Source: Neoroseomonas alkaliterrae (lineage in GTDB: Bacteria > Pseudomonadota > Alphaproteobacteria > Acetobacterales > Acetobacteraceae). Taken from it: 64,000 bases of DNA. The stretch is from the NCBI RefSeq assembly GCF_014199195.1, contig NZ_JACIJE010000003.1, positions 124,001 through 188,000 on the forward strand. Reading direction: 5' to 3'. Shown one piece after another: positions 47,570-59,812 of this stretch (the first letter of the stretch is position 1; each line of letters starts with the position of its first letter). A program made the position numbers and the translations under genes. The notes under the pieces are model-generated. The model was not told the origin of the DNA. It was given only the letters and a program-made list of their open reading frames with translations, and searched no databases.

Positions 47570-47849
47570 CGCGGTTCATCGCGGCGGGTGGCGTGGTCGC
47601 GCTGCCGTGATCCGTCGCCGCAGTGGCGGTGCAGGGCGGCCGCCACCCTGTCCGTGGCCCGCATCCTCATTCATCGCGGCACGCCCGCATCGGCGGCGAT
47701 TCTCCGCGCCGCCATCCTGGACGCGGCGGTGGTCCGAAACCTCGGGCCCGGCCGCTCCACCAGCCCCGCGCGCGGGCATGGGCGCCGATTGACAGCCCCC
47801 GCGGCGCCCGCCCAGGCTTTGCCCGACAACGGTGCCGAGGGGAAACGCG
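47570..47849. other. 280-base gap without recognised gene
   Basis: Between the hydrolase and the dehydratase gene I find no coding frame with credible composition, no repeat-family copy and no clear promoter. A ribosome site (GAGGGGAAA) precedes the ATG at 47850. The promoter of the sugar-acid cluster should lie here. Confidence 0.5.
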
Positions 47850-49640
47850 ATGGCTGCTGAAGACCAGACGAAACGGCCATTCAAGCTGCGCAGCCAGCGC
47901 TGGTTCGACGACCCGACCGACCCGGGCATGACCTCGCTCTACATCGAGCGCATGCTCAATTTCGGCATGACGCGCGGGGAGCTGCAGTCCGGCCGCCCGA
48001 TCATCGGCATCGCCCAGACCGGATCCGACATCGCCCCCTGCAACCGCCACCACATCGCGCTGGCCGAGCGCGTGAAGGCGGGCATCCGCGACGCCGGCGG
48101 CGTGCCGCTCGAGTTCCCGATCCACCCGATCCAGGAGACGCTGAAGCGCCCCACCGCCTCGCTGGACCGCAACCTGCAATACCTCTCGCTGGTCGAGATC
48201 CTGCACGGCTACCCGATGGACGGGGTGGTGCTGACACTCGGCTGCGACAAGACGACGCCCGCGCAGCTCATGGCCGCGGCGACGGTGAACATCCCCGCGA
48301 TCGGCCTCTCGGGGGGGCCGATGCTGGACGGCTACTGGAAGGGGCGGCTCGCGGGCTCCGGCACCATCGTGTGGGAAGCGCGCAAGATGCTCGCCGCCGG
48401 GGAGATCGACAACGACACCTTCATCGAGATGGTGGCCGCGAGCGCGACGAGCGTCGGCCATTGCTCGACCATGGGCACGGCGCTTTCGATGAACTCGCTG
48501 GCCGAGGCGGTGGGCATGTCGCTGACCGGCTGCGCCGCCATCCCCGGCCCCTATCGCCAGCGCGGGCAGATCGCCTACGAGACCGGCAAGCGCATCGTGC
48601 GCATGGTGGAGGAGAGGCTCCGCCCCTCCGACATCATGACGAAGAAGGCCTTCGAGAACGCGGTGGCGGTGGCCTCGGCGATAGGCGCTTCCTCCAACTG
48701 CCCGATCCACATGGTCGCCATCGCCCGCCACATGGGCGTGGACCACACGGTCGAGGACTGGCAGCGCGTCGGCGCCGACATCCCGCTGCTGGTGGATTGC
48801 CAGCCCGCCGGCCGGTTCCTCGGCGAGGCCTTCTATCGTGCCGGCGGCGTGCCGGCGGTGATGAAACAACTGCTCGACGCCGGCCTGCTGCATGGCGACG
48901 TGATGACGGTCACCGGCCGCACGCTCGCCGAGAACGTCGCCAACATCCCCGACCCGGACCCGGAGGTCATCCGCCCGCTGTCGAAGCCGATGAAGGAGCG
49001 CGCGGGCTTCGTCGTGCTCTCGGGCAACCTGTTCGACAACGCGGTGATGAAGATCAGCGTGATCGACAAGGCCTTCCGCGAGCGCTTTCTCTCCGACCCG
49101 CCCGACGTGTTCGAGGGCAAGGTCGCGGTCTTCGAAGGCCCCGAGGACTACCACGCGCGCATCGAGGACCCCGCCCTCGGCATCGACGAGAAGACGGTCC
49201 TGGTGATCCGCAACTGCGGCCCCGTGGGCTATCCGGGTGCTGCGGAGGTGGTGAACATGCAGCCGCCCGCCGCGCTGATCAAACGCGGGATCACCGCGCT
49301 GCCCACCATGGGCGACGGGCGGCAGTCGGGCACCTCGGGCTCGCCCTCGATCCTCAACGTCTCGCCGGAAGCCGCGGTCGGCGGCGGCCTCGCGCTGCTC
49401 AAGGACGGCGACCCGATCCGCATCGACCTCAAGGCGCGCAAGGTGGACGTGCTGATCCCCGCCGAGGAACTGGCCGCCCGCCGCGCCGCCTGGAAGGCGC
49501 CCGAGATCGTGAACAAGACGCCGTGGGAGGAGATCTACCGCTCCATGGTCGGCAGCCTCGGCACCGGCGGCTGCCTCGAACCCGCCACCCTTTTCCTCAA
49601 CATCCTGGAGACGCGCGGCGAAAGCCGGCACAACCACTGA
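47850..49640 (+). CDS. IlvD/Edd-family sugar-acid dehydratase
   Basis: A 596-residue iron-sulfur dehydratase starting [20 protein letters not shown]. Three conserved cysteines typical of [2Fe-2S] pentonate dehydratases are visible in [21 protein letters not shown] and [10 protein letters not shown]. The latch [17 protein letters not shown] is intact. It resembles L-arabinonate/pentonate dehydratases more than biosynthetic IlvD (RSQRWFDDP start). It would dehydrate an aldonate to a 2-keto-3-deoxy acid. The SDR gene starts 1 base after its stop, so they work in sequence. Confidence 0.87.
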
Positions 49641-49641
49641 C

Positions 49642-50391
49642 ATGAGCGGACGTCTTTCCGGCAAGCGCTGCTTCGTCACCGCCGCGGGCCAGGGCATCGG
49701 CCGTGCGGCCGCCCTCGCCATGGCGGCGGAAGGGGCGACCGTGATCGCCACCGACAAGGACGCGCACAAGGTCGGCGACCTCGGCGCGCGCGGCATCACG
49801 CATGTGCCGCTCGACGTGCTCGACGATGCGGCGGTGGAGCGCGTCGCGCGGGAAGCCGGGCCGATCGACGTGCTGTTCAACTGCGCGGGCTTCGTCCACC
49901 AGAACAACGTGCTGACCTGCACCGACGAGGAATGGGACTTCGGCTTCGCGCTGAACGTGCGCGCCATGTGGAAGGTGGCGCGCGCCTTCATCCCCGGGAT
50001 GCTCGAACGCAAGGCGGGCTCGATCATCAACATGTCGAGCGCCTGTTCCTCGGTGAAGGGCGCGCCCAACCGCTTCCTCTACGGCACCACCAAGGCGGCG
50101 GTAGTGGGGATGACGAAATCCATCGCCACCGACTACGTGACGCAGGGCATTCGCTGCAACTGCCTCTGCCCCGGAACGGTGGACACGCCGTCCCTGCATG
50201 AGCGCATCGCGGCCAATGCCGCCGCGGCGGGCTCGGTGGAGGCGGCGCGCGCGGCCTTCGTCGCGCGGCAGGCCATGGGCCGGCTCGCCACGCCGGAGGA
50301 AATGGCAGCGCTCGTCGTCTATCTCGCGGCCGACGAGAGCGCCTTCGTCACCGGCCAGGCCATCGTCATAGACGGCGGCTGGACGTTGTGA
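49642..50391 (+). CDS. SDR dehydrogenase, likely 2-keto-3-deoxy-sugar-acid 4-dehydrogenase
   Basis: A 249-residue short-chain dehydrogenase. Motifs are TAAGQGIGRAAALAM (cofactor), NCAGFV, the catalytic Ser in NMSSACSS, Tyr/Lys in YGTTKAAVVGMTKS, and the C-terminal FVTGQAIVIDGGW. It resembles DHRS6/2-keto-3-deoxy-L-fuconate dehydrogenases. Next to an aldonate dehydratase and an FAH-family hydrolase, oxidation of a 2-keto-3-deoxy acid to a 2,4-diketo acid is the most coherent role. Substrate stereochemistry cannot be told from sequence. Confidence 0.82.
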   Translation: MSGRLSGKRCFVTAAGQGIGRAAALAMAAEGATVIATDKDAHKVGDLGARGITHVPLDVLDDAAVERVAREAGPIDVLFNCAGFVHQNNVLTCTDEEWDFGFALNVRAMWKVARAFIPGMLERKAGSIINMSSACSSVKGAPNRFLYGTTKAAVVGMTKSIATDYVTQGIRCNCLCPGTVDTPSLHERIAANAAAAGSVEAARAAFVARQAMGRLATPEEMAALVVYLAADESAFVTGQAIVIDGGWTL

Positions 50392-50424
50392 CCATGATCC
50401 GGAACGACAGGAAGGAGGCATCAC

Positions 50425-50664
50425 ATGGGCTTTGAACTCGCGGTCCCCCTCCTCGCCATGATGGGCGCGGTGGTGCTTGCCGGCATGGTGGACGAGGCGG
50501 CGATGCCGGCCTTCATGACGCTGGGCAGCCTCTGCATGCTGGTCGCGCTCCTGATCTGGAACGGCACCATCCAGATGCCGCCGCAGCAGGCCATCGCCCT
50601 CGGCTTCGTCGCCGCCGGCTTCGCGCTGTTCGGCCATGTCCGTGGCGCGCCGCGCCGCGTCTGA
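50425..50664 (+). CDS. small membrane protein in sugar-acid cluster
   Basis: A 79-residue protein with a good ribosome site (GGAAGGAGG, 8 bases before the ATG). Hydrophobic segments are at about residues 5-22, 29-46 and 57-70, so two or three spans are expected, with a short basic tail GAPRRV. No family is recognised. It lies between the dehydrogenase and hydrolase genes of the cluster. It could be a subunit of a small transporter or simply a small orphan. Confidence 0.6.
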   Translation: MGFELAVPLLAMMGAVVLAGMVDEAAMPAFMTLGSLCMLVALLIWNGTIQMPPQQAIALGFVAAGFALFGHVRGAPRRV

Positions 50665-50745
50665 TCCGGCGCGGGGGCGGCCCTTCCGGCCGCCGCCTTC
50701 CCCTGGCATGGTGTCGGTCCCGAAGAATCAGGCAGGACCACACCC

Positions 50746-51594
50746 ATGAAGCTGCTGCGCTACGGACCCGCCGGGCAGGAGAAGCCCGGCCTTCTGGATT
50801 CCGACGGCGGCATCCGCGACCTTTCGGGCGTCATCCCCGACCTGACGGGCGATGCACTCTCCCCGGCCTCCCTCGCACGGCTCGCGGCCCTCGACCCGGC
50901 CTCGCTGCCCAGGGTCGAGGGCAATCCGCGCCTCGGCCCGCCGGTGACGGGCATGAAGAACCTCGTCTGCATCGGGCTGAACTACGCCGACCACGCGGCC
51001 GAGACTGGCGCGCCCATCCCCAAGGAACCGATCGTCTTCCTCAAGTCGCTGAACGCGCTGAGCGGCCCGAACGACGACGTCATCATCCCGCGCGGCAGCG
51101 TGAAGACGGACTGGGAGGTGGAGCTCGCGGTCATCATCGGCACCCGCGCGAAATACGTGAGCGAGGAGAACGCTCTCGACCACGTGGCCGGCTATGCCGT
51201 CGGCAACGACGTGAGCGAGCGCGAATGGCAGGCCGAGCGCGGCGGCGCCTGGGACAAGGGCAAGGGCTTCGACACCTTCGGCCCGCTCGGCCCCTGGCTG
51301 GTCACGAAGGACGAGATCCCGGACCCGCAGAACCTCTCGATGTTCTGCGATGTGGACGGCGTGCGCCAGCAGGACGGCTCGACGCGCACCATGATCTTCG
51401 GCGTCAAGCAGATCATCGCCTATGTCAGCCAGTGCATCACGCTGAACCCGGGCGACGTGATCTTCACCGGCACGCCGCCCGGCGTGGGGCTCGGCAAGAA
51501 GCCGACGCCGGTCTTCCTCAAGCCGGGGCAGGTGATGCGCCTCGGCATCCAGGGGCTGGGCGAGCAGCAGCAGCGGCTCGTTGCCTCGGCATGA
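50746..51594 (+). CDS. fumarylacetoacetate hydrolase family protein (2,4-diketo-3-deoxy acid hydrolase-like)
   Basis: A 282-residue FAH-fold enzyme. Its short N-terminal domain begins MKLLRYGPAGQEKPGL. Catalytic and metal residues lie in IGLNYADHAAETG, DWEVELAVIIGTRA, GNDVSEREWQ and GPLGPWLVTKDE. FTGTPPGVGLGKKP is the usual C-terminal block. The MKLLRYG start and overall length match L-2,4-diketo-3-deoxy-sugar-acid hydrolases (annotated as ureidoglycolate lyase by similarity). It would split the diketo acid into pyruvate and a hydroxyacid. Its stop overlaps the next start (ATGA). Confidence 0.85.
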   Translation: MKLLRYGPAGQEKPGLLDSDGGIRDLSGVIPDLTGDALSPASLARLAALDPASLPRVEGNPRLGPPVTGMKNLVCIGLNYADHAAETGAPIPKEPIVFLKSLNALSGPNDDVIIPRGSVKTDWEVELAVIIGTRAKYVSEENALDHVAGYAVGNDVSEREWQAERGGAWDKGKGFDTFGPLGPWLVTKDEIPDPQNLSMFCDVDGVRQQDGSTRTMIFGVKQIIAYVSQCITLNPGDVIFTGTPPGVGLGKKPTPVFLKPGQVMRLGIQGLGEQQQRLVASA

Positions 51595-53487: not shown

Positions 53488-55023
53488 TCACATCGTCGCC
53501 CCGAGCACCCAGGGCGCGAATTCCTGCGCGCCGAAGCCCATCGCCTCGCTCTTCGTCCTCTCGCCCGAGGCCACGCGCAGCATCAGGTCGAAGATGCGCT
53601 GTCCGCATTCCTCCACGCTCTCCCCGCCGCTGACGATCTCCCCGCAATTGATGTCCATGTCCTCGGAAAGGCGCTCATACATCGGCGTGTTCGTCGCGAG
53701 CTTGATGGACGGCGCCGGCTTCATCCCGAACACCGAGCCGCGCCCCGTCGTGAAGCAGACGAGGTTCGCCCCGCCCGCCACCTGGCCCGTCGCGCCCACC
53801 GGGTCGTAGCCCGGCGTGTCCATGAAGACGAAGCCCTTGGCGGTGACCGGCTCGGCATAGCGATAGACCTCGACCAGGTTGGTCGTCCCGGCCTTGGCCA
53901 TGGCGCCGAGCGACTTCTCCAGGATGGTCGTCAGCCCGCCCGCCTTGTTGCCGGGGGAGGGGTTGGCGTTCATCTCTGCCCCCTCGCGGGCGGTGTAGTC
54001 CTCCCACCACTTCATCACGTCCACGAGCTTCTGCCCGACCTCGCGCGAGACGGCGCGGCGCGTCAGCAGGTGTTCCGCGCCATAGGTCTCGGGGGATTCG
54101 GAGAGGATCACCGTGCCGCCATGCCGCACCACGAGGTCGCTCGCCGCGCCCAGCGCCGGGTTCGCCGTGATGCCCGAATACCCGTCAGAGCCACCGCATT
54201 GCAGCGCGACGCAGAGTTCGCTGGCCGGCACAGGCACGCGCGTGACGGCGTTCGATTCCGCCAGCACCTCCTTCACGAAGTCCATGCCCTTCAGCACGGT
54301 CGCGCGCGAGCCGCCGCTGTCCTGGATGTCCATGCTGCGCAGCCGGCCGGTCAGCTTCTGCTCCTCGAGCATCGGGCCGAGCTGGTTCACCTCGCAGCCG
54401 AGGCCGATGGCGATGACGTGGGAGAAGTTCGCATGCCGCGCGAAGCCCGCGAGCGTGCGGCGCAGCACGCGCAGTGGCTCATCCATCGTCATGCCGCAGC
54501 CGGTCTTGTGCGTCAGCGCCACCACCCCGTCCACATTCGGCCAGGCTGCCAGCGGATCATGGCCGGTGATCGGGTTGCGCTCGAACTGCCGGGCAATGAG
54601 TTCGGCCACATGCGCCGAACAGTTCACGGAAGTGATGATGCCGATGTAGTTGCGCGTCGCCGCGCGCCCGTCGGCGCGGCGAATGCCCATGAAAGTCGCC
54701 GGCGCAGCGACGTAGTCCGTAGGCTTTGCATCCGCGCCCCAGGCGTAGTCGCGGGCGAAATCCCCCATCTCGCAATTGTGGGTGTGAACCCAGGCACCCG
54801 GCTCGATCGCATCCGTCGCGAAGCCGATGATCTGGCCGTAGCGGCGGATCGGCTCGCCCTTCGCATGGGGGCGGACTGCCACCTTGTGGCCGGCCGGGAT
54901 GCGTCGCTCGCCCACGCTGATGCCGGGGGCCACCTCGGTGCCCGGCGGCAGCACCGTGCGGGCGATCACCACCCCGTCGTCGGGGTGCAGGCGGATCACC
55001 GGCGGCAGGGTGGTCGTCGTCAT
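53488..55023 (-). CDS. UxaA-family dehydratase (altronate/galactarate dehydratase-like)
   Basis: A 511-residue protein with an N-terminal SAF domain (VIRLHPDDGVVIA, residues 8-100) and a C-terminal UxaA/GarD domain. Visible motifs are NYIGIITSVNCSAHVAELI, HKTGCGMTM, GLGCEVNQLGPML, CGGSDGYSGITANPALG and FTTGRGSVFGMKPAPSIK. It would dehydrate a hexonate or related hydroxyacid with an iron cofactor. It lies 2 kb from the IlvD-SDR-FAH cluster but on the other strand and may supply another entry to sugar-acid degradation. The ATG at 55023 (MTTTTLPP) is preferred to one 18 codons upstream. Confidence 0.86.
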   Translation of the reverse strand: MTTTTLPPVIRLHPDDGVVIARTVLPPGTEVAPGISVGERRIPAGHKVAVRPHAKGEPIRRYGQIIGFATDAIEPGAWVHTHNCEMGDFARDYAWGADAKPTDYVAAPATFMGIRRADGRAATRNYIGIITSVNCSAHVAELIARQFERNPITGHDPLAAWPNVDGVVALTHKTGCGMTMDEPLRVLRRTLAGFARHANFSHVIAIGLGCEVNQLGPMLEEQKLTGRLRSMDIQDSGGSRATVLKGMDFVKEVLAESNAVTRVPVPASELCVALQCGGSDGYSGITANPALGAASDLVVRHGGTVILSESPETYGAEHLLTRRAVSREVGQKLVDVMKWWEDYTAREGAEMNANPSPGNKAGGLTTILEKSLGAMAKAGTTNLVEVYRYAEPVTAKGFVFMDTPGYDPVGATGQVAGGANLVCFTTGRGSVFGMKPAPSIKLATNTPMYERLSEDMDINCGEIVSGGESVEECGQRIFDLMLRVASGERTKSEAMGFGAQEFAPWVLGATM

Positions 55024-55120
55024 CGCGCAATCCTCCATCGCTCGCCGCCATCCTAGCCGAGCGGCCGGGCCGCGCATCCCCGCCCTTGCGCGGCGGCGCG
55101 AAGCGGTGCATCCAAGGCGA

Positions 55121-55216
55121 GGACACCTTGGGGAGCCCCGTCGGGGGCTGAGAGGCGGGCTTCACCCGCGACCCATGGAACCTGATCCGGTTCGGACCGG
55201 CGAAGGGAACGGTGCC
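55121..55216 (+). promoter_or_regulatory. TPP (thiamine pyrophosphate) riboswitch
   Basis: A classical THI-box aptamer: P1 pairs GGACACC (55121-55127) with GGTGCC (55211-55216), the stem GGGGAGCCCC lies opposite GGGGGCTGAGA, the invariant CTGAGA is at 55148-55153, GGAACCTGATCCGG lies at 55177-55190, and ACCGGCGAAGGGAA follows. All conserved blocks are in the right order and spacing. About 90 bases downstream a hairpin could pair TCCCC (55282-55286) with GGGGA just before the ATG at 55308, so control of translation is likely. It is on the strand of the binding-protein gene. Confidence 0.92.
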
Positions 55217-55307
55217 ACCCGTTCGTCCGCGCGTTCCCTCCCCGCTCGCGGGGCGACGCGCGGCCGCGACCGGGCCTCCGCTCCCCATCCCGGCCATGGA
55301 GGGGACG

Positions 55308-56888
55308 ATGCTCAACCGCCGCTCGCTGCTCGCCGCCGCCGCCGCCCTGCCCTTGGCGCGCGCCGCCCATGCCCAGCCCGCCCGCTCGCGCGTGCTGCGC
55401 TTCATGCCGCAGGCCGCCCTCGCCTCGCTCGACCCGGTGTTCAGCCCGAGCACCATCATCACCACCCATGCCTATTGCGTGTTCGACACGCTCTACGGCG
55501 CCGACCGCGCGCTGCGCCCGCGACCGCAGATGGCCGAGGGCCACGCGATCGAGGATGACGGCCGCACGGTGCGCATCCGCCTGCGCGACGGCTTGCGCTG
55601 GCACGACGGGGAGCCGGTGCGCGCGGCCGATTGCGTCGCCTCGATCAAGCGCTGGGGCAGCCGCGACGCCTTCGGCCAGGTGCTGATGCGTGCCACCGCC
55701 GAGCTCGCCGCCGAGGACGACCGCACCATCCGCTTCCGCCTGCACCGGCCCTTCCCCGCGCTCTTCGACGCGCTCGCCAAGCCTGGCGCCTCGCCCTGCT
55801 TCATGATGCCCGAGCGCATCGCGAACCTGCCCGCCGACCGCCCGCTCGGCGTGGAGCACATGGTCGGTTCCGGCCCCTGGCGCTTTGTCGGCGCCGAATA
55901 CGTGCAGGGCAGCCGCAGCGTCTATCTGCGCAACGAGGCCTATGTCCCGCGCGAGGAACCGGCCGAGGCGGCCGCGGGCGGCAAGCGCGTGCATTTCGAC
56001 CGTCTGGAACTGATCTGGATCCCCGATGGCGGCACGGCGGCGGCCGCGCTGCGCACCGGAGAGATCGACTGGATCGAATACCCGCTGCCCGACCTCGTGC
56101 CGCTGCTCGAGCGCGACCGCAACACGCGCACGCAGATCTACGACCCGAACGGCTTCCTCGGCTTCCTGCGCTTCAACCACCTCCATCCGCCCTTCAGCGA
56201 TGTGCGGGTGCGCCGCGCCATCCGCGACGTGATCGTGCAGTCCGATTTCATGTCGGCTGTGGCGCTCGAGGGCGACTGGCAGGAATGCCACGCCATGTTC
56301 CCCTGCGGCCTGCCCGGCGTGATCGAGTTCCCCCCCGCCCCGCGCGGCGCGGCGGCGATGGAGCGCGCCCGCGCCGCGCTGCGCGAGGCCGGGTACAACG
56401 GCGAGCCGATCGTGCACATCAACCCCTCCGACTTCCCGGCCGTGACGCAGCAGGGGCGGCTGACGGTGGAGCTGATGCGCCGGCTCGGGGTGAACATCCA
56501 GCCGGTGGAGAGCGACTGGGCCTCCATCCTCGCCCGCCGCAACAACCGCACCCCGCCGACGCAGGGAGGCTGGAACCTGCACAACACCAACGGCCCGGCC
56601 GCGACCATCGCCAACCCGGCCGTCTCCTTCGTCATCCGCATGAACGGGGAGCGCGCCTGGCCCGGCTGGCCGACCGACGCAGCGGTGGAGGAACAGGTCG
56701 AGGCCTGGATCATGGCCGCCGACGCCGAGGCCCAGGCGCGGGCCATGCGCCGGCTGCAGGAACTCGCCTGGGATGCCGTGCCCTTCGCGCCGACCGGCCT
56801 GTTCCGCCTGCGCACCGCCTTCCGGCGGGAGATCACTGGCGTGCTGCAGGGGCCGAACCCCTTCGTGTGGAACCTCCGCCGCGGGTAG
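55308..56888 (+). CDS. family 5 ABC solute-binding protein under TPP riboswitch
   Basis: A 526-residue periplasmic binding protein of the DppA/OppA family. The signal peptide is MLNRRSLLAAAAALPLARAAHA, followed by mature QPARSRVLRFMPQ. Family blocks are LASLDPVFSPSTIITTHAY, RIRLRDGLRWHDGEPVRAADC, GSGPWRFVGAEY and FNHLHPPFSDVRVRRAI. The ATG at 55308 has GGAGGGG 5 bases upstream; the ATG at 55296 lacks such a site. No permease or ATPase gene is adjacent. The riboswitch upstream implies that the ligand is thiamine or a precursor. A peptide ligand is the default family alternative. Confidence 0.88.
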   Translation: MLNRRSLLAAAAALPLARAAHAQPARSRVLRFMPQAALASLDPVFSPSTIITTHAYCVFDTLYGADRALRPRPQMAEGHAIEDDGRTVRIRLRDGLRWHDGEPVRAADCVASIKRWGSRDAFGQVLMRATAELAAEDDRTIRFRLHRPFPALFDALAKPGASPCFMMPERIANLPADRPLGVEHMVGSGPWRFVGAEYVQGSRSVYLRNEAYVPREEPAEAAAGGKRVHFDRLELIWIPDGGTAAAALRTGEIDWIEYPLPDLVPLLERDRNTRTQIYDPNGFLGFLRFNHLHPPFSDVRVRRAIRDVIVQSDFMSAVALEGDWQECHAMFPCGLPGVIEFPPAPRGAAAMERARAALREAGYNGEPIVHINPSDFPAVTQQGRLTVELMRRLGVNIQPVESDWASILARRNNRTPPTQGGWNLHNTNGPAATIANPAVSFVIRMNGERAWPGWPTDAAVEEQVEAWIMAADAEAQARAMRRLQELAWDAVPFAPTGLFRLRTAFRREITGVLQGPNPFVWNLRRG

Positions 56889-56905: not shown

Positions 56906-57124
56906 TCAGGCGCTCTCCGCGTCGAAGGGCCGGACGGGCAGGCGGCGGATCGCGGCCGCCGCACGCAGCGCGCCCTCCGCCCGCGCGGCGCCGATGGCGC
57001 CCTTCTCCTCGCCCGCCGTCATCGCGACGATGCGCGCCGCATCCACCGACGCCGCGTGCATCTCCTCCTGGCCGCGGCGCCAGGCGCGCTCCAGCGCCGC
57101 GCGCATGGCCGGCTCGTTCAGCAC
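56906..57124 (-). CDS. small helical protein coupled to eipB
   Basis: A 72-residue protein with a GTG start overlapping the eipB stop by 7 bases (GTGCTGA). An internal ATG 6 codons later is an alternative. The sequence is Ala/Arg/Glu-rich and helical (AMRAALERAWRRGQEEMHA, then EEKGAIGAARAEGALRAAAAI) with no signal peptide and no recognised family. Coupling suggests expression with EipB. It ends 18 bases from the convergent binding-protein gene. Reality rests on position and composition only. Confidence 0.5.
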   Translation of the reverse strand: MLNEPAMRAALERAWRRGQEEMHAASVDAARIVAMTAGEEKGAIGAARAEGALRAAAAIRRLPVRPFDAESA

Positions 57125-57978
57125 CCGCCGGGCACAGGCTCCAGCCGGATGAGCTGCCCGGCGACGACGAACTCCCTGAAATCCATCATCAGCTCGTCCG
57201 CCACGCCGTTCTCCCAGTAGCGCAGCGAGACCTCGTAGGACGGCGTGGTCGCGCCGCCGCCCTGCTGCTGGGCCTCGCGGTCGAAGAAGGCGATGCGCAT
57301 CCGCGCCGAGCCGAGCGGGGAGAGCGCGGGGAACCCTGCCACCTCGCGCGGCGCGTCCCAGGGCGAGAAGACCGAAGTGGTGTCCTGCGCCCCTTCAGCG
57401 GAGGTGCCGTCGAAGAGGGGCGCGACCAGCAGCCGCCGCCCCTCTCGCACCGCGTTCAGCGCGAGGATGGTGTGCATGTTGGGCAGCAGCGTGCCGGGCG
57501 GCAGGCGTTCCTCCTTCGCCTCGGGCTCGGTGTAGCGGGCGATGCCGCTGCCGTCGGGGCCGATCTCCGCCTCGCCCGCGATGCGCTGGGTCACGGCGCC
57601 CTGGGTCATCTGCGTCAGGGTGAAGCGCAGCCGGCGGCCGTCCTTCGTCTCCCAGGTCGCGTAGTCCGAGGCTGTCTCCATCTCGGTCCCGTCGCCGTCG
57701 GTGAGCGTGAGGGAGAAGCGCTGGCGCGTCGCCCAGCCGTCGCAGGCATCCACGATCTCGTAGAGCATCGCGCCCTCGGCGCGGGCGATGTTCGCCGTCT
57801 CCCGCACGCGGGCCAGGGAGAGCCGGTAGGCGGCCCGGTGCGGGGCGAGGTGCCGCGCCTCGATCGGCTGACCCTGCGGCACGGAGGCCGCCGGCGCGGC
57901 GGCCGGGGCCTGGGCGCGGGCGGCGTGGCCCGCGGCGAGGCCCGCGAGAAGGACGGCAATCAGCAGGCGCAACCGCAT
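57118..57978 (-). CDS. eipB: cell-envelope integrity protein EipB (DUF1849)
   Basis: A 286-residue periplasmic protein. The signal peptide is MRLRLLIAVLLAGLAAGHAARAQ (residues 1-23). The body carries LAPHRAAYRLSL, DACDGWATRQRFSL, DYATWETKDGRRLRF and LLPNMHTILALNAV, matching EipB of Brucella and other Alphaproteobacteria. The family fold is a beta-spiral closed by one disulfide. Only two cysteines remain after the signal, in DACDGW and at the C-terminal residue (PGGC), exactly the expected pair. It contributes to envelope stability. Confidence 0.88.
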   Translation of the reverse strand: MRLRLLIAVLLAGLAAGHAARAQAPAAAPAASVPQGQPIEARHLAPHRAAYRLSLARVRETANIARAEGAMLYEIVDACDGWATRQRFSLTLTDGDGTEMETASDYATWETKDGRRLRFTLTQMTQGAVTQRIAGEAEIGPDGSGIARYTEPEAKEERLPPGTLLPNMHTILALNAVREGRRLLVAPLFDGTSAEGAQDTTSVFSPWDAPREVAGFPALSPLGSARMRIAFFDREAQQQGGGATTPSYEVSLRYWENGVADELMMDFREFVVAGQLIRLEPVPGGC

Positions 57979-58009
57979 CGCGGGCTCCAGATCCGGGGAC
58001 GAGCCGAAT

Positions 58010-59812
58010 TTAGGGTGCCTTGGGCGCCGGCGCACCCTTGGGCGGCGGCAGATCGAGGCGGATATGCAGTTCCTTGAGCCTCTCGGGCGGCACGCGCGCC
58101 GGGGCCTGCATCATCAGATCCTCGCCCTGCTGGTTGAGGGGGAAGAGGATCACCTCGCGGATGTTCGGCTCGTCGGCCAGAAGCATCACGATGCGGTCGA
58201 TGCCCGGGGCCGAGCCGCCATGCGGCGGCGCGCCGTAGCGGAAGGCGTTGAGCATGCCGCCGAAGCGGTCCTCGACATCCTGCGCCGTGTAGCCCGCGAT
58301 CTCGAAGGCGCGGATCATGATGTCCGGGCGGTGGTTGCGGATCGCGCCGCTGGAGAGTTCCACCCCGTTGCACACGATGTCGTACTGGAACGCCTTGATG
58401 TCCAAGGGGTTCATCGTGTTCAGCGCCTCGAGCCCGCCCTGCGGCATGCTGAACGGGTTATGGCTGAAGTCGATCTGCCCGGTTTCCTCGTTCAGCTCGT
58501 ACATCGGGAAATCGACGATCCAGCAGAAGCGGAACTCGTCGGTCGCGATGAGGTCGAGTTCCTCGCCAAGCCGCGTGCGGACCTTGCCGGCGAATTTCGG
58601 CGCCTCGTCCTTCTTGCCGGCGGCGAAGAAGACGGCATCGCCCGCGTTCAGCCCGCAGGCGGCGCGGATCGCCTCCACGCGGTCGGCCTCGAGGTTCTTC
58701 GCGATCGGCCCCTTCGGCCCGTCGGCGGCGAACTGGATGTAGCCGAGCCCGCCCGCGCCCTCGGCGCGCGCCCATTCGTTCAGCTTGTCGAAGAAGCCGC
58801 GCGGCTTGTCGGCCGCGCCCGGCGCGGGGATGGCGCGGACCACGCCGCCCGCGGCCGCGATCTTCGCGAACAGCCCGAAGCCCGAGCCGGCGAAGTGCTC
58901 GGTGACATCCGCGATCTTCAGCGGGTTGCGCAGGTCCGGCTTGTCCGAGCCATAGACGAGCATGGCCTCGTCATAGGGAATGCGCGGGAAGGGCGCGCCG
59001 AACACCTTCCGCCCGTTGGCGAACTCCTCGAAGACGCCCGCGATCACCGGCTCGATGGCGGCGAAGACGTCCTCCTGCGTGACGAAGCTCATCTCGAAGT
59101 CGAGCTGGTAGAACTCGCCGGGCGAGCGGTCGGCGCGGGAGGCCTCGTCGCGGAAGCAGGGCGCGATCTGGAAGTAGCGGTCGAAGCCCGCGACCATGCA
59201 GAGCTGCTTGAACTGCTGCGGCGCCTGCGGCAGCGCGTAGAACTTGCCCGGATGCAGGCGGGAGGGCACGAGGAAGTCGCGCGCGCCCTCGGGGGAGGAG
59301 GCCGTCAGGATCGGCGTCTGGAACTCGGTGAAGCCCTGCTCGATCATGCGACGGCGGATCGAGGCGATCACGTTCGCGCGCAGCATGATGTTGCGGTGCT
59401 GGCGTTCGCGCCGCAGGTCGAGGAAGCGGTAGCGCAGGCGCAGATCCTCGGGGAATTCCTGCTCGCCCGCGACCTGGATGGGCAGCATCTCGGCGGCGGA
59501 CTGCACCACCACCTCGCGCACGCGCAGCTCGATCTCGCCGGTGGGCAGTTTCGGGTTCACCGTGCCGGGCTCGCGCAGCACCACCTCGCCGGTCACGGTG
59601 ATGACGCTCTCGGGCCGCACCTCCTCGAGCGTGGCAAGCATGGGCGAGCCGGCGGCGACCACGCATTGCGTCATGCCGTAATGGTCGCGCAGGTCCACGA
59701 AGAGCAGCCCGCCATGGTCGCGCTTGCGGTGCACCCAGCCGGAAAGGCGGACGGTCTTGCCGGCGTCGGCGGCGCGCAGCGCGGCGCAGGTATGGGTGCG
59801 GTAGGCGTGCAT
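58010..59812 (-). CDS. aspS: aspartyl-tRNA synthetase, probably non-discriminating
   Basis: A 600-residue bacterial-type AspRS. The anticodon domain ([12 protein letters not shown]...) contains [18 protein letters not shown]. Class II motif 2 is [11 protein letters not shown], a GAD insertion lies in the middle, and motif 3 is [12 protein letters not shown]. The His in RDHGG (Leu in discriminating enzymes such as E. coli) marks the non-discriminating type that also charges tRNA-Asn, later amidated by GatCAB. This is known for Pseudomonas and inferred here. It is divergent from rnd after the intervening aldo/keto reductase gene. Confidence 0.94.

Follow-up and report, generated by a model that had tools for sequence, protein, structure and literature searches.

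A lone gene for a family 5 solute-binding protein downstream of a predicted TPP riboswitch in Neoroseomonas alkaliterrae: a candidate binder of a vitamin B1 precursor

The window analysed here is a stretch of 64,000 nucleotides from the genome of Neoroseomonas alkaliterrae (contig NZ_JACIJE010000003.1, positions 124,001 to 188,000), and positions are those of the window unless a contig is named. Scanning the whole window against Rfam at the gathering threshold gave a single match, a TPP riboswitch (RF00059), which lies upstream of the gene for a family 5 solute-binding protein (SBP5). The features of the locus are as follows.

53488-55077, strand opposite to the SBP5 gene: galactarate/altronate dehydratase-like gene.
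55119-55226, + strand: complete TPP riboswitch aptamer (THI element, RF00059), identified by cmscan, the sole TPP match in the genome, with covariation in its helices.
55227-55307, + strand: leader from the aptamer to the start codon, a predicted expression platform from the sequence, with the ribosome-binding site GGAGGGG at 55298-55304.
55308-56888, + strand: family 5 solute-binding protein gene (SBP_bac_5), 526 residues, predicted to be exported, with twin arginines at residues 4-5.
57118-58035, strand opposite to the SBP5 gene: EipB-like gene.

The initial annotation of this DNA, made from the sequence, described a complete THI-box aptamer ahead of a DppA/OppA-type binding protein, and both parts of this description are borne out. 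In cmscan the aptamer reaches 68.2 bits (E of 2.8e-11), above the curated gathering score of 54.3, and it covers model positions 1-105 of 105 and is thus complete. A genome-wide search for TPP riboswitches returned one match in the 4.24 Mb assembly (50 contigs, completeness of 100 according to the tool used), and it is the one upstream of the SBP5 gene. CTGAGA and GAACCTGAT, which we take to be the conserved core motifs of the TPP riboswitch, are invariant across 38 aptamers. Over the 35 distinct aptamers, four of the five pair measures of covariation exceeded those of 500 of 500 shuffles and the fifth exceeded 495 of 500; all pair measures also exceeded the slid controls and 92.3% of the cells were paired, for a structure derived from the window row, a choice that favours that structure.

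The aptamer ends 81 nucleotides before the start codon of the SBP5 gene. We read the gene from the ATG at 55308, which is preceded by GGAGGGG at 55298, to the stop at 56888. The mechanical start call was a GTG at 55212, inside the aptamer, and this overlap makes it the less likely start; a GGAGG-like site and the start region align in 16 leaders. Simple scans of the leader found neither an intrinsic terminator nor a promoter-like site. In folding calculations the Shine-Dalgarno region was mostly paired both with and without the aptamer enforced, the stability of the leader was not above that of shuffles (z of 0.25) and no clear switching or expression platform was seen. As no terminator was found, translation is the likely level of control, although the folds do not show this control. 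The presence of the aptamer predicts that the gene is under TPP control.

The SBP5 protein matches PF00496 with 194.8 bits, the only Pfam family that it matches, and both the profile cut-off and the fold place it in family 5. A scan against NCBIfam at E of 0.001 returned only models of the family 5 type. There was no match to PF09084 (NMT1/THI5-like) or to an NCBIfam thiamine-binding model, so the protein does not class with ThiY or ThiB. The NCBIfam equivalog for DppA (NF043070) gave 41.5 of the required 1005 bits. Fold matches included DppA and OppA as well as binders of opines, sialic acid and nickel. The N-terminus, MLNRRSLLAAAAALPLARAAHA (55308-55373, + strand), holds the twin arginines, which are kept in at least 90% of 41 relatives and may direct export by the Tat route.

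Both flanking genes lie on the opposite strand, and the SBP5 gene therefore stands alone. As the initial annotation had noted, nothing adjacent looks like a partner: the eight proteins scanned between 47.8 and 58.0 kb include no permease, ABC ATPase or thiamine enzyme. Further upstream, genes for an ILVD/EDD dehydratase, a short-chain dehydrogenase and an FAA hydrolase stand in a row (47832-51591, + strand) that resembles a cluster for sugar-acid breakdown; the FAA hydrolase reaches 447 of the 500 bits for 2,4-didehydro-3-deoxy-L-rhamnonate hydrolase.

Queried with the SBP5 protein, genome contigs yielded 79 loci; judging by their titles, almost all belong to Roseomonas-like Acetobacteraceae or to alphaproteobacterial metagenome-assembled genomes (MAGs). 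We built a covariance model from the 38 aptamers and ran it on the window and the 79 loci (80 sources); a strong match (E of 1.5e-17 or better) lay shortly upstream of the SBP gene in 60 of the 80, 22 of them outside the model-building set. The 79 loci comprise 72 orthologous and seven paralogue loci (L076-L082, 43-46% identity), and 69 of the 72 could be assessed, since L043, L067 and L075 have almost no upstream DNA. The switch precedes the gene at 59 of these 69 orthologous loci, compared with none of the seven paralogue loci. Together with the single TPP match in the genome, this places the adjacency of aptamer and SBP5 gene above chance. The ten orthologues lacking the switch (L051, L054, L055, L057, L058, L059, L060, L063, L069 and L072) are mostly from Belnapia and Roseicella: they come from Belnapia, two Roseicella, Paeniroseomonas, Paracraurococcus ruber and one Siccirubricoccus. 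Several MAGs titled Microbispora sp. (L045) or Asaia bogorensis (L016, L019, L071 and L075) carry SBP5 orthologues of the Roseomonas type, with the switch in all of them except L075, which lacks upstream DNA; these MAGs look misnamed or misbinned.

In a maximum-likelihood tree, built by a quick method without bootstrapping and with some long paralogue branches, the orthologues and four more distant ones form one clade of 76 rows (SH-aLRT of 100). The switch is present in 64 of these rows, absent from ten and unknown in two, and the label needs five changes on the tree. The window neighbours were followed across 86 loci, three of which are repeats of contigs already included: the EipB-like gene was found at 43, the dehydratase-like gene at 41 and a further neighbour, a putative aspartyl-tRNA synthetase gene, at 40. 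The neighbours are thus found at only about half of the loci, and the pair persists through changes in its neighbourhood. The pairing, seen in one sequence by the initial annotation, recurs in relatives both here and in the genome survey that follows.

The survey covered 150 genomes of Acetobacteraceae, each at least 90% complete. A TPP match at E of 0.001 was found in 142 of them (122 over the cut-off), and ThiC was present in 111 and absent from 39. An SBP5 orthologue (60% identity or more) occurs in 23 genomes, in one of them (G078) as a partial sequence, and a TPP match lies directly upstream of it in 18, of which 16 were recognised from match positions across the genomes and two (G109 and G143) by examining the upstream DNA. 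The model found no switch upstream of the orthologue in the stretch examined for G100, G022, G147, G106 and G078, and all five of these genomes have ThiC.

ThiC is kept in 13 of the 18 genomes with the pair, so the SBP5 gene is not tied to auxotrophy; among the matches listed, 12 of the 13 have a separate TPP match before thiC, G143 being the exception. This bears on the idea that the riboswitch was left behind by thiC or another thi gene since lost, and stands only by chance upstream of an SBP gene that has nothing to do with it. Such a history would suit the N. alkaliterrae genome, where ThiC was not found and no thi gene adjoins the switch, but it leaves unexplained the genomes that hold the pair and ThiC side by side, each with its own TPP match in all listed cases but one, and an aptamer that has remained complete, with covarying helices, throughout the clade despite the changes of neighbours. 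We rejected the leftover reading on the ThiC count and consider it very improbable.

The five genomes that have the pair and lack ThiC (N. alkaliterrae, G137, G040, G109 and G122) each contain exactly one TPP match. For TPP targets away from ThiC and the SBP gene, part of the listed matches was examined and the first genes were classed against Pfam-checked representatives. The classed targets in the relatives were ThiXYZ-like importers, ThiO, ThiD, ThiM, PnuT-like proteins and TonB receptors, the last in some cases accompanied by an NMT1 protein; a few targets, such as L131, L139 and L206, matched no class. Across the 39 genomes without ThiC the TPP target is SBP5 in five, a ThiXYZ-like importer in 11 (weak in G132) and a TonB receptor in 12, and the remainder have no TPP match (seven), a match at a contig end (one, G115) or fall outside the classification (G017, G045 and G072). 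As the five SBP5 genomes have no other TPP match, the SBP5 gene occupies the place that another TPP-controlled importer takes in the relatives.

Two further arrangements were seen among these targets. Behind the TPP riboswitch at L128, L140, L141, L145, L149, L191, L195 and L196, mostly in relatives without ThiC, a TonB receptor is followed by an NMT1-type protein, which may be another two-part uptake module under TPP control. At L131 (G058 C23) and L139 (G120 C319) the switch precedes a frame with an odd N-terminal stretch that was matched by no representative used; by eye, the L131 frame runs into ThiG-like sequence.

The thiamine genes of N. alkaliterrae itself suggest which compound would need to be imported. 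ThiC gave no match in this genome, although the same search detected it in 13 of the 14 genomes used as controls. ThiE (PF02581, 188 bits; TIGR00693, 171.4 over 145.1), ThiD (311.8 bits; TIGR00097, 311.7 over 204.95) and ThiG (359 bits) with an adjoining ThiS (61.1 bits) are all present. The genome thus keeps the thiazole branch and the step that joins the two halves, whereas no enzyme was detected for the pyrimidine branch; with ThiD, ThiE, ThiG and ThiS present and ThiC not detected, its gene content is that of a pyrimidine (HMP) auxotroph. A search with the ThiY of a relative found no orthologue in this genome (best hit with 26% identity and 40.2 bits). About 3 kb separate the thiS-thiG pair (C8:147760-151825) from a different family 5 transporter system, and biotin carboxylase genes lie in the interval.

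From these data we propose that the stand-alone SBP5 behind the predicted TPP riboswitch captures a B1 precursor, most likely HMP, which would enter the cell by a permease probably encoded elsewhere in the genome, and we give this reading an even chance of being right. Its closest rival is intact thiamine: SBP5 would bind thiamine or its phosphates and bring them in by the hub described below or by another permease, and the cell would then pyrophosphorylate the thiamine. Both kinds of importer, those for thiamine and those for its precursors, are controlled by TPP riboswitches (PMC3766115, in the text available), and the comparative data fit thiamine as well as they fit HMP. However, ThiD, ThiE, ThiG and ThiS, which are kept, would be needless under a pure thiamine importer, and the only missing step detected is the pyrimidine step. 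The two ligands are not firmly told apart by these data; we regard thiamine as rather unlikely and HMP as the better candidate.

Family 5 is best known for peptides, and the fold matches to DppA and OppA, together with the eight members of the subfamily in one genome, which suggest general nutrient uptake, would fit a protein that binds peptides or another nutrient and was merely brought under TPP control, for example to match the uptake of peptides with metabolism that depends on TPP. The binding site argues otherwise. According to the available text of the E. coli DppA study (PMC12136057), the carboxyl end of the dipeptide is bound by R383 and the amino end by D436, and a charge-swapped double mutant binds no dipeptide. 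In alignment with the K-12 protein, the window protein has no arginine at R383, a column that holds a gap or P/A/N. D436 aligns with His425 in one alignment, and there is an aspartate in none of the 41 rows; the surrounding segment, GGWNLHNTNGPA, has no aspartate, and while two alignments differ in register here, residues 420-431 hold none either. The opine, sialic acid and nickel binders in the fold list allow for other ligands, and the TPP switches of Acetobacteraceae that were examined and classed otherwise precede thiamine genes or vitamer importers. We therefore judge a peptide or other nutrient to be decidedly unlikely, and the suggestion in the initial annotation that the ligand might be a thiamine-containing peptide has lost ground, as has any other peptide.

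The pocket does not by itself point to B1. His425, Asn426 and Asn428 are invariant among the 70 core orthologues and occur in none of 14 paralogues, and the four basal switched orthologues keep Asn428 alone, so that two of the three fixed residues are not kept there. The paralogues likewise lack the clamp residues of DppA; the missing clamp consequently argues against ordinary dipeptides for the subfamily rather than for B1 in particular.

If SBP5 captures HMP it needs a permease, and the wider complement of the genome offers a candidate. The genome has 32 SBP5 matches and 64 PF00528 matches. By script, 12 of the 32 SBP5 genes have no PF00528 match within 6 kb; the first gene of a tandem array is among them, which leaves 11 of 32 isolated. 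We thus discarded the notion that an orphan SBP is special: the orphan status noted in the initial annotation is common in this genome and says little by itself. The subfamily of the window protein (40% identity or more) numbers eight SBP5 proteins in this genome: four are isolated, the window gene included, and four stand in tandem before permB-permC-atpD-atpF at C4:283-294 kb, in the following operon.

C4:282500-295500 (L155, 1-13001), elsewhere in the N. alkaliterrae genome: conserved hub operon of tandem family 5 binding-protein genes followed by one permease and two ATPase genes, with its permease part at C4:290-294 kb.

This is the only permease near any member of the subfamily in the genome. 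At six of the seven paralogue loci of other species (L076-L081), three or four SBP genes are arrayed before a permB that is 87-89% identical to the hub permB, and the binding proteins are far more varied between species than permB; the seventh locus (L082) has no permease in its stretch of DNA. Judging from this linkage of the paralogues, the hub permease is the likely partner of the window SBP5. That more than one SBP can use a single permease has been described for DppA1-A5 of Pseudomonas aeruginosa (PMC4206461, in the text available). An E-R pair similar to the scoop motif of DppB (E41 and R42) was found by eye in only one of the 14 aligned permB-type permeases of the genome (C10:8452), so this motif says nothing about whether the hub permB matches SBP5.

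Several known systems resemble parts of this arrangement. ThiXYZ, an ABC importer with the NMT1-type ThiY, likewise places a TPP switch before an ABC-import gene, and is listed as an importer of the pyrimidine precursor (or of B1) in the available text of PMC10881298; it differs in that ThiY belongs to PF09084 and the window protein to PF00496, and in that a permease and an ATPase adjoin thiY, with none beside the window gene. ThiV of Pelagibacterales (PMC10881298, same text) occurs with the genotype seen in N. alkaliterrae, thiG and thiE without thiC and one TPP-linked pyrimidine importer, but it is a sodium:solute symporter and not a binding protein. Unlike E. coli DppA and P. aeruginosa DppA1-A5, the window protein lacks R383 and D436, falls far below the DppA cut-off and is encoded by a gene behind a TPP switch. 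GbpA of Pasteurellaceae resembles the window protein in being a family 5 subfamily confined to a clade, whose ligand lies outside the ordinary peptides of DppA; GbpA binds glutathione, however, and the available text of PMC3295651 reports no TPP switch for it. The closest solved structure is PDB entry 8vdx (385 bits, 39-40% identity), an SBP from Bordetella bronchiseptica RB50; its title gives no ligand or function, and a literature search found no paper about the structure.

A 2013 survey of riboswitch regulons counted 19 orthologue groups of TPP-controlled transporters for thiamine or its precursors (PMC3766115, in the text available). The proteins named for B1 acquisition in the available text of PMC10881298 and PMC12442306 are ThiB(PQ), ThiT, ThiY/ThiXYZ, ThiV, CytX, YkoF, Omr1, ThiPerm and PnuC, with no family 5 protein among them. 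The open-access PMC literature, as far as its text was available, yielded no report that links a TPP riboswitch with a protein of family 5; the 19 groups are not itemised in that text of PMC3766115, and absence from print is hence uncertain.

For the TPP response, the export, the ligand and the permease partner we infer the following mechanism, with the sequence, its conservation and the gene content as its basis. At low TPP the leader would let SBP5 be translated, and at high TPP it would shut translation off. In the periplasm, SBP5 would bind the vitamer after its own export and pass it to the multi-SBP hub permease (C4:290-294 kb). Inside the cell, ThiD would phosphorylate the HMP taken up, for ThiE to combine with thiazole of the cell's own making. 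The proposal in the initial annotation of a thiamine or precursor binder from a non-classical family, with its permease encoded elsewhere, is in part supported at the level of sequence by the conserved pair, the failure to detect ThiC, the alternation with ThiXYZ-like importers and TonB receptors, and the hub permease; its choice between thiamine and a precursor now leans towards HMP. More broadly, and somewhat more tentatively than HMP capture itself, we suggest a new class of B1-precursor importer, in which a TPP-switched family 5 protein dedicated to HMP works on a shared hub permease and replaces ThiXYZ or TonB receptors in Roseomonas-like bacteria without ThiC; this possibility falls a little short of an even chance.

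If this is true, the Acetobacteraceae would have a further type of B1-vitamer importer, made by giving a permease already in use one additional, switched binding protein. It would also give a first ligand to one branch, that of PDB entry 8vdx, of a large SBP5 family with 32 members in this genome alone, and it would explain how pyrimidine is supplied in bacteria that have neither thiC nor a recognised TPP-controlled importer.
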